Source: Nicoliella spurrieriana (GTDB taxonomy: Bacteria; Bacillota; Bacilli; Lactobacillales; Lactobacillaceae). Taken from it: a stretch of 64,000 bases of DNA. The position numbers were made by a program, and so were the translations under genes. Shown in pieces: positions 13,942 to 18,855 of this stretch (the stretch's first letter is position 1; each line of letters begins with the position of its first letter). The notes beneath the pieces are model-generated. The model was given only the letters and a program-made list of their open reading frames with translations, searched no databases and was not told the DNA's origin. The stretch spans positions 992,001-1,056,000 of the forward strand of contig NZ_CP093361.1 of NCBI RefSeq assembly GCF_023380205.1. The letters are read 5' to 3'.

Positions 13942-14892
13942 ATGATTGAATTTGAAAAACCTGATATTCATAAAATTGATGAAACCGATAACTATGGTGA
14001 AGTTGTTGTAGAACCATTAGAACGTGGTTATGGAACAACCCTTGGTAATTCTTTAAGAAGAATTTTACTTTCATCTTTACCTGGTGCTGCAATTACCAGT
14101 GTTCAAATCGATGATGTTTTACATGAATTTTCTACCATTAAGGGTGTTGTGGAAGATGTTACGCAAATTATTCTTAATGTTAAAAAAATTGATTTGAAAA
14201 TTGAAGGTTCAGATGATGTCGAAAAATCTTTTGAGATCAATGTTACTGGGCCCGCTAATGTTACTGCTGGTGATATTGAAGCTGACGCAGATGTTACGAT
14301 CTTAAATAAGGATTTACACATCGCTACGGTTGCAGAAGGAACTACTTTCCATATGCGTTTAACAGCAAATAAGGGTCGTGGTTATGTATCTGCAGATGAA
14401 AATAAGGAACAAAATGAAGGAATGCCAATCGGTGTTTTACCAGTTGATTCCATTTATACCCCAATCGAACGTGTAAACTATCAAGTTGAAAATGCACGGG
14501 TTGGTCACAAAGCTGATTATGATAAGTTAACGCTAGATGTTTGGACCAATGGTTCCATGACTCCTAGTGAAGCTGTTAGTTTAGCTGCTAAAATTCTAAC
14601 TGATCACCTTAATATGTTTGTTAACCTTACTGATGAAGCTAAGAATACAAAAGTAATGGTAGAAAAAGAAGAAACGCATAAGGAAAAGATGTTAGAAATG
14701 ACAATTGAAGAATTGGATCTTTCTGTTCGTTCTTACAATTGTTTAAAACGTGCTGGGATTAACACGGTTCAAGAACTTACTGATAAAAGTGAACCAGATA
14801 TGATGAAGGTTCGTAACTTAGGTCGTAAGTCACTTGATGAAGTTAAGGTTAAGCTAAATAACCTTGGTTTATCCCTACGTAAAGAAGATTAA
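13942..14892 (+). CDS. rpoA: RNA polymerase alpha subunit
   Basis: 316 residues. The N-terminal dimerisation domain (about 1-230) has [21 protein letters not shown]. The C-terminal domain (about 250-316) has [22 protein letters not shown] and [11 protein letters not shown] for UP-element and activator contacts. ATG preceded by AAAGGGG. Standard place between rpsK and rplQ. Confidence 0.98.
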
Positions 14893-14909: not shown

Positions 14910-15293
14910 ATGAGTTACCGTAAATTACAACGCACTAGTGCTCACCGTCGTTCATTACTTCGTAATTTAACCACTGATTTATTAGTTAATGGTCAAATTA
15001 AGACTACTGAAGCACGTGCTAAAGAAGTTCGCTCAACCACTGACAAGATGATTACTCTTGGTAAGCGTGGAGATCTTAGTGCTCGTCGTAAGGCTGCAGC
15101 ATTTTTACAAAATGTTGTTGCTGATGCTAAGGAAAGTGGCGACACTGTAACTGTTCAAACTGCTTTACAAAAGCTCTTTGATGACGTTGCGCCTAAGTAT
15201 TCCGACCGTAATGGTGGATACACTCGCATGTACAAGACCATGCCTCGTCGTGGTGATGGTGCTGCGATGGTTATTTTACAATTAGTTGATTAA
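14910..15293 (+). CDS. rplQ: Ribosomal protein L17
   Basis: 50S protein L17, 127 residues, last gene of the superoperon. Begins [23 protein letters not shown] and ends [22 protein letters not shown] precedes the ATG. The next element is a structured RNA with a terminal T run. Confidence 0.98.
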
Positions 15294-15317
15294 TTGTTTA
15301 TAATTTCATATTAAGTG

Positions 15318-15423
15318 AAATCACTAGGGTTAGTAATATAGAACGTTATGATGATGGGAATCCCGAGTCTAGTTCGAATGTAGATTTTTATCTACGCATT
15401 GCTAACCTGTTAGTGATTTTTTT
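15318..15423 (+). ncRNA. Unidentified structured RNA ending in a terminator, rplQ-ecfA1 gap
   Basis: A 9-bp perfect outer helix pairs 15318-15326 with 15411-15419, stacked on a 10-bp helix (one G-U) between 15328-15337 and 15398-15407, then a T run to 15423. The 60-nt interior is not a simple loop. GTAGAT (15380-15385) pairs with ATCTAC (15390-15395) around TTTT. GAAC (15341-15344) can pair with GTTC (15372-15375), enclosing GGG/CCC. This makes a branched, three-way-junction-like fold on a terminator stem. It surely can stop transcription after rplQ. Whether it is also a riboswitch-like or small-RNA element is open. I could not match it to a known family by eye. Confidence 0.6.
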
Positions 15424-15461
15424 ATACATAAATTTACTAAAGTAGAATTGAGGGATTACCA

Positions 15462-16301
15462 ATCGAGGATTACATTATTAAAGTTAATCATTTAAAATAT
15501 AGATACTCAGAAAATGATGACTATTCATTGAATGACGTTTCATTTAATGTTAAACGGGGTGAATGGCTATCGATTATCGGTCACAACGGTAGTGGGAAAA
15601 GCACTCTGGTTAGCGCGTTAGATGGACTAATTAGTATTGATAGTGGTTCAATTGAAGTGGATTCGATTGATTTAAATCCTGATTCGGTTTGGGAAGTTCG
15701 GGATCGAATTGGATTGGTGTTTCAAAATCCTGATGATCAATTTGTTGGTGCAACTGTTGAAGATGATGTTGCATTTGGTCTGCAAAATCATAATATTGAA
15801 TATAATCAGATGCATCAAATTGTTAATAAAGCATTAGATGCAGTTGGTATGAGTGCCTTTAAAATGAAATCGCCGTCTAATTTATCTGGTGGCCAAAAAC
15901 AACGAGTTGCGCTAGCTGGAATTATCGCTTTGCATCCACAAATTATTATTTTAGATGAATCTACTAATATGTTAGATCCAGCTGGTAAAGAACAAATTCT
16001 GTCAGTAATAATGGATTTAAAAGAACGCTATAAATTAACCGTCATTTCAATTACACATGACGTAAATGAATTAAAATTAGCTAACCGCATTCTAGTTATG
16101 AATGATGGGAAGGTTGTTGATGAAAACACGCCATCAGAAATATTTAGCCAACCTCAAAAATTGATTAATATGGGGTTAACATTGCCATATCCGGAAATAA
16201 TTAAACGCCATCTAAACAAGTTAGGAGTTGAAACTCCTGACCAATATCTAAATGAAGGAGCATTTATAAAATGGATTCAACAATTTCCTTTGAAAAAGTA
16301 A
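15462..16301 (+). CDS. ecfA1: ECF transporter ATPase EcfA1 (probable ATC start)
   Basis: One of the two ATPases powering energy-coupling-factor vitamin uptake. Walker A GHNGSGKST at residues 40-48, signature LSGGQKQR, Walker B IIILDE. The first TTG in frame (15528) would remove the first beta strand and the A-loop tyrosines. The frame is open upstream and encodes IIKVNHLKYRY, typical of EcfA1. The only well-placed start after TTGAGGGA (6 nt spacing) is ATC at 15462, giving 279 residues, the usual family size. No ATG, GTG or TTG exists between the upstream stop (15438) and 15528. Confidence 0.9.
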   Translation: MEDYIIKVNHLKYRYSENDDYSLNDVSFNVKRGEWLSIIGHNGSGKSTLVSALDGLISIDSGSIEVDSIDLNPDSVWEVRDRIGLVFQNPDDQFVGATVEDDVAFGLQNHNIEYNQMHQIVNKALDAVGMSAFKMKSPSNLSGGQKQRVALAGIIALHPQIIILDESTNMLDPAGKEQILSVIMDLKERYKLTVISITHDVNELKLANRILVMNDGKVVDENTPSEIFSQPQKLINMGLTLPYPEIIKRHLNKLGVETPDQYLNEGAFIKWIQQFPLKK

Positions 16302-18783: not shown

Positions 18784-18855
18784 TGGTATTGTTTGCCCCA
18801 CAATAAAGCCCCGGAAACTTTTAGTTGGTGTCGAACAAACACAGAAACATGGAGG
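18784..18855 (+). promoter_or_regulatory. L13-type ribosomal leader
   Basis: The leader between the promoter and rplM is closed by GTTTG (18791-18795) pairing with CAAAC (18836-18840). Its inner part holds GCCCC, CCCCGGAAACTTTT and GGTGTCGAA blocks. This resembles the L13 leader described upstream of rplM in Firmicutes (family knowledge, recalled from memory). Feedback by L13 is the accepted idea for that family. Confidence 0.55.

Follow-up and report, generated by a model that had tools for sequence, protein, structure and literature searches.

Gene content of the locus

The RNA element described here lies in a window of 64,000 nt (the whole stretch of DNA that was analysed), on the plus strand and 3' of rplQ, in the 3' part of an alpha operon which runs ... 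rpsM-rpsK-rpoA-rplQ. The next gene on the same strand after the element is ecfA1, which is followed by a second ABC ATPase gene (ecfA2), a gene for a CbiQ-type protein (ecfT), truA and rplM, the ecf names being taken from a preliminary description of this DNA and from the gene order. The coordinates of the features are collected in Table 1. Two other Rfam matches were recorded in the window, namely L13_leader (RF00555, 49.9 bits) at 18785–18845, before rplM, and the S10-Clostridia ribosomal leader (RF03136) at 1186–1295, the latter with 35.8 bits at a cut-off of 35.1 and in what appears to be a Lactobacillaceae genome.

Table 1. Features of the rplQ–ecfA1 region (positions in the window)
Feature	Position	Strand	Evidence or remark
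rpoA	13942–14892		Upstream of rplQ
rplQ, ribosomal protein L17, last alpha operon gene	14910–15293	+	ORF; Pfam PF01196, E 2.1e-35
Sigma-70-like promoter match, TTTACA-N18-TATAAT, 11/12	15275–15304	+	Across the rplQ end, just before the element
P1, outer closing helix, 5' strand (10 bp + 11 bp)	15317–15337	+	Fold; double-sided changes
Match to Rfam RF01708, L17DE	15340–15396	+	37.1 bits, gathering cut-off 37
P2 hairpin, conserved core GTTATGATGATGG...CCCGAGTCTAG	15341–15375	+	Fold; near-invariant GAU/GUC
P3 hairpin, variable in sequence, covarying (5/5 modelled pairs)	15380–15395	+	Fold, alignments
P1, outer helix, 3' strand, running into the T run	15398–15420	+	Fold
T run of the composite terminator	15417–15423	+	Sequence
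ecfA1 (ABC ATPase)	15462–16301	+	Pfam ABC_tran; start inferred

Predicted secondary structure

The element (15317–15421) was found to fold at −36.9 kcal/mol, compared with a mean of −18.7 (sd 3.0) for 200 dinucleotide shuffles, none of which folded as well (z −6.1). The longer stretch 15300–15440, the folding of which had been proposed in the preliminary description, was likewise more stable than its shuffles (z −4.4). The fold of the reverse strand is weaker (−24.2), yet it is also far better than that of its own shuffles (z −4.7).

The two outer helices that had been described were recovered base for base, the perfect one of 9 bp pairing 15318–15326 with 15411–15419 and the second of 10 bp, with a single G-U pair (15334–15401), pairing 15328–15337 with 15398–15407. 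In the minimum-energy fold each gains one further G-U pair, resulting in helices of 10 and 11 bp with a 2-nt bulge at 15409–15410. Together they form an outer helix (P1) which encloses a two-hairpin junction and ends in a T run. Both inner hairpins of the preliminary description were also present, P2 with GAAC/GTTC (15341–15344 with 15372–15375), GAT/GTC (15350–15352 with 15367–15369) and TGGG/CCCG (15355–15358 with 15362–15365), and P3 with GTAGAT/ATCTAC (15380–15385 with 15390–15395). The structure is absent from the list of a terminator scan which covered loops of 3–8 nt only. As in a simple intrinsic terminator, the predicted fold has a stem followed directly by a T run, termination itself being a prediction; however, the loop of a simple terminator is short, whereas the interior here is branched, covarying and of about 60 nt.

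Assignment to the L17DE family

The element was matched to the L17DE family by a search of Rfam release 15 (Table 1). The preliminary description had recognised no known family, and an Rfam entry already naming the element was one of the outcomes that it had set against its own proposal; with a match above the gathering score this part of it is not supported. As the Rfam score is borderline (0.1 bit above the cut-off), a further test was made with a covariance model, R2, which was trained on 45 elements from Lactobacillaceae, those of the window and of its only compared congener being excluded. R2 gave 89.2 bits on the window (E 4.5e-20), the next match within the window being at E 6.9; because the structure string of R2 was drawn on an alignment including the window, this test is independent in its letters but not in its structure.

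The element is a divergent copy of L17DE, a catalogued element, and its membership of the family is established here. It is found directly 3' of rplQ and on the same strand (rplQ ends at 15293 and the match starts at 15340), and it has a covarying two-hairpin structure with a conserved core. Position after rplQ, strand, two-hairpin layout, Lactobacillales range and the core GUUAUGAUG / AGUCUAG are all common to the element and L17DE. The matched stretch of 57 nt is nevertheless shorter than the 78 positions of the Rfam model, with a shorter second hairpin, and the structure line of that model is without an enclosing helix, whereas P1 here encloses the hairpins and runs into the T run. P1 is therefore an addition to the Rfam model. 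What is added here is the closing helix, the way in which it runs into the T run, and a census of wider scope, although P1 is not claimed as unpublished.

A candidate RNA tied to rplQ has also been described in Actinobacteria and Proteobacteria, namely an L17 ribosomal leader (PMC7247131). That leader is located in a 5' UTR, while L17DE is said there to occur in distinct organisms and in Firmicutes only; the two are likened here by their description in that source and not by sequence. Ribosomal protein leaders are located in the 5' UTR of the r-protein gene that they regulate, which is not the position of the present element.

Covariation and conserved core

Covariation, which the preliminary description had proposed as a check, was found to be strong in two alignments, A2 and A3, and in A3 to include the outer helix. 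Alignment A2 comprises 47 elements, 35 of them found by the core pattern, and its rows had to carry ATCAC[TC] and GTGAT where the helix ends; its invariant outermost pairs and core carry no weight, as the rows were selected for them. Pairing according to the 31-pair structure is seen in 93.4% of the cells of A2, compared with 83.1% when the 3' letters are shuffled, and 19 pairs have changes on both sides. The covariation score is 0.410 vs. 0.201 for shuffled alignments (reached in 0 of 500 shuffles) and no higher than 0.140 in slid controls. A register problem of A2 leaves three of the outer pairs open, in 17, 27, and 17 of its 47 rows.

Alignment A3 (54 elements including other families, of which three were found by pattern and two, L001 and L068, are partial matches) leans toward the model because it was fitted to it. 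Here 92.6% of the cells are paired vs. 69.6% after shuffling, double changes are seen in 27 of 31 pairs (a number reached by 2 of 500 shuffles) and the covariation score is 0.534 vs. 0.192, which none of 500 shuffles reached, with slid controls at 0.102 or less. Changes on both sides are seen in each of the 16 pairs modelled for P1. The branched, structured RNA on a terminator-like stem is real, lies where the preliminary description had placed it and covaries as a three-way junction.

The GAU/GUC pairs of P2, on the other hand, are near-constant, being the same in 53, 54, and 54 of the 54 sequences of A3. The core was also kept in all eight elements that were found only through rplQ, in the form G(U/C)(U/A)A(U/C/A)GAUG and AGU(C/U)UAG. 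A near-invariant core inside covarying helices suggests a candidate binding site. In two loci (L001 and L002) a GAGTGTT/AACACTC pairing is predicted after rplQ which would compete with the base of P2 and might act as a switch.

Fusion of the closing helix with the T run

Fusion was scored where a stem of at least 8 pairs around the core ended no more than 3 nt from a T run. Of 139 distinct loci in which both a core and a T run were recognised, 115 satisfy this rule, compared with 179 of 695 controls (five per locus) in which the flanks were mononucleotide-shuffled. From the 172 distinct loci at the outset 33 were dropped: in 18 no core was matched (the seven loci lacking the element are among them), and in 15 a core was matched but no T run was recognised. 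Fusion is thus not universal, with 24 of the 139 loci failing the rule in addition to those 15. Three loci (L001–L003, probably streptococcal, although the name is a guess) have a separate strong hairpin downstream of the element. An [AG]TAC motif downstream of the T run, the conservation of which was striking by eye, was present in only 33 of the 115 loci and was rejected.

Distribution and linkage to rplQ

At a threshold of E 0.001 the Rfam model matched 181 of the 198 genomes sampled from the order (Lactobacillales, judging from the named records), 162 of them over the cut-off, i.e., the gathering score. Among 60 relatives 46 genomes matched, 36 of them above the cut-off; among 41 genomes of the family 26 did (15 above it), and among 200 of the class 22 did (17 above it). 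In the phylum sample of 149 genomes the one match was the genome under study itself. Names follow the titles of the records, and the family is taken to be Lactobacillaceae on the strength of sequences in common, such as L020 and L146. Each listed matching genome had a single match. The census of order, class and phylum is consistent with the Lactobacillales part of the published range of L17DE, which is given as Lactobacillales and Listeria (Weinberg et al., 2010; PMC2864571).

An extended model, R1, biased to Lactobacillaceae, matched 123 of 151 family genomes and 32 of 40 genera, and only 4 of 151 class genomes, as is to be expected of a model built on Lactobacillaceae. Fifteen of 69 sources had no R1 match at E 0.1; seven of these are without the element, and the remaining eight (L003, L014, L018, and L041–L045) were matched by the Rfam model at E 0.001 or better, five of them under the cut-off. 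Among the 15 Lactobacillaceae genomes missed by the Rfam model, R1 found the element in eight (one a partial match). In the other seven R1 detected no element and rplQ is followed by a plain hairpin, which suggests that the element is dispensable there.

When one genome per species was scanned with the pattern, at least 119 stretches were obtained, and rplQ was directly upstream in all 117 loci in which this could be tested; the other two (L166 and L186) were left unscored for linkage, being stretches without upstream DNA. The core lies 18–105 nt after the rplQ stop (117 loci among the matches listed). The loci are a convenience sample of pattern-scan matches listed and sampled genomes, and those numbered from L195 onward enter no locus count. 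The element is linked to rplQ and probably belongs to it and not to the neighbouring vitamin transporter.

A record titled Sedimentibacter sp. SX930 (L125, 6819–6955) was also found to carry rplQ and L17DE. In the offsets of its element and in its gap to ecfA1 it is identical to Trichococcus loci, and the record is therefore probably mislabelled or mixed. In the congener (L203; G001 C1 967313–967336) a 24-nt stretch elsewhere in the genome is 96% like the end of rplQ.

Relationship to ecfA1

The downstream context was scored in 149 distinct element loci that are followed by 900 nt or more of sequence, 16 with less being left out. The gene ecfA1 is located within 600 nt in 107 of them and not in 42. 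In 39 of those 42 the longest ORF is another one (on the opposite strand in 12), with ecfA1 at 676–1024 nt in seven of the 39, and in three no ORF was found. The element is thus independent of ecfA1 and is not consistently upstream of ECF genes, as an ECF riboswitch would be.

The start of ecfA1 is non-standard, as the preliminary description had stated, with no ATG, GTG, or TTG in 15438–15527; the frame has a TAA at 15438 and none of the three codons from that stop to codon 8. The ATC at 15462, located 7 nt after GAGGG and kept in the congener, is the likely start judging from the sequence, and it lies 38 nt beyond the final T of the run. The program default, TTG 15528, is not conserved in the congener and was discarded. 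A canonical start is missing in only two of 116 distinct ecfA1 starts, those of this genome and of its only compared congener.

The upstream promoter match is also confined to this genus. At 11/12 there are two matches in 139 loci vs. 0.3 in shuffles, both in this genus, and at ≥10/12 these loci remain the only ones, the other 137 having none. A promoter conserved upstream of the element was considered and rejected, with 24 matches vs. 14.85 in shuffles at ≥9/12 and 2 vs. 2.45 at ≥10. The upstream promoter match, together with the short distance between the T run and ecfA1 and the position of its start, allows that in this genus the element may also be a leader for ecfA1.

Proposed role and alternative explanations

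It has been proposed that L17 exerts feedback from the 3' UTR through L17DE, for which no obvious rRNA similarity was noted in that report; few bacterial precedents exist for feedback from this position (Weinberg et al., 2010; PMC2864571). As possible ligands of the RNA, L17 and the other proteins encoded in the operon upstream have been named (PMC7247131). RNA maps of E. faecalis and E. faecium have placed a predicted L17DE in an rplQ 3' UTR of about 180 nt with a terminator (PMC7724050), and a terminator has been placed after rplQ in B. subtilis (PMC4495994). In the relevant parts of PMC6064168 and PMC7160235 the family is merely listed. No functional test of L17DE was found in the open-licence literature.

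A role for the mRNA of the upstream operon is indicated, as the context ties the element to rplQ and not to ecfA1. We read it as a 3'-UTR r-protein feedback element of the alpha operon which is fused to the terminator, with L17 as the preferred protein, and give this reading a probability of about 0.5. The closing helix is also the stem abutting the T run, here and in most loci, so that the alpha-operon mRNA would end in a three-way junction of P1, P2, and P3 if, as we infer, transcription ends there. The P2 core (GUUAUGAUG / AGUCUAG) would be the most likely predicted site for the binding of an r-protein of the upstream operon, putatively L17. In the direction of control that is envisaged, excess bound protein would result in less operon output, by way of termination or of decay from the 3' end. 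With respect to rRNA mimicry, the rRNA locus of the window itself was scanned crudely for motifs, which gave partial words such as GATGTTGG and no paired site.

The alternative which survives best, and which we regard as possible though somewhat unlikely, is a passive 3'-end device, i.e., a strongly folded terminator that would shield the alpha-operon mRNA from 3' exonucleases with no ligand involved. The very stable fold and the abutment of stem and T run in 115 of 139 loci agree with such a device. However, a near-invariant internal-loop core within covarying helices, kept in eight of eight unselected elements, exceeds what stability needs, and loci L001–L003 retain the element beside their separate hairpin.

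A more far-reaching form of the feedback proposal is rather doubtful in our estimation. According to it L17DE would be a protein-gated composite terminator, in which L17 or another alpha-operon r-protein on the P2 core alters termination or 3'-end decay; the operon would regulate itself from its 3' end, and in lactobacilli with a short gap the ECF transporter would be tied to ribosome supply as well. Distinct from this, and clearly unlikely, is a protein-gated terminator which sets read-through and couples ecfA1-ecfA2-ecfT-truA to ribosome supply where ecfA1 follows closely. It would suit the 24 loci in which the rplQ–ecfA1 gap is ≤184 nt and the aligned ecfA1 start is 28–85 nt from the first T, and also the window, where transcription from the sole promoter-like match after the T run, TTTATA-16-TAGAAT (9/12, ending at 15448), would start at about the ribosome-binding site. 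In its favour, too, longer rplQ–ecfA1 gaps often contain promoter-like sequence (by eye). Against it, transcription of ecfA1 may start at a weaker TATACA after the T run. As a general role it is contradicted by the 42 of 149 loci without ecfA1 within 600 nt, 12 of 39 longest ORFs there being on the opposite strand.

We consider it improbable that the element acts as a small RNA, whether set free from the 3' UTR of rplQ or transcribed from a promoter of its own. An RNA detected by microarray, SR79100, overlaps an L17DE according to Weinberg et al. (2010; PMC2864571), on whom this overlap rests, the name itself appearing in PMC2765633, and in this genus the 11/12 promoter match lies just upstream; but a match of 10 or better occurs in only two of 139 loci, both of this genus. 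A ligand-sensing terminator for the ECF vitamin transporter, as suggested in the preliminary description, may be dismissed as highly improbable, for although 107 of the 149 loci have ecfA1 at a distance of no more than 600 nt, the element tracks rplQ and stays with it in the 42 where ecfA1 is absent or further away, and two rplQ–ecfA1 junctions (L071 and L075) are without the element.

How the r-protein genes of the alpha operon are regulated in Bacilli is described as still unknown (PMC10931766), and in Lactobacillales L17DE is the obvious candidate. With a covarying closing helix that runs into a T run, the element offers a concrete construct for testing in non-pathogenic lactobacilli. If L17DE is a protein-gated terminator, expression of the ECF transporter would be tied to ribosome supply in those lactobacilli in which the gap is short.
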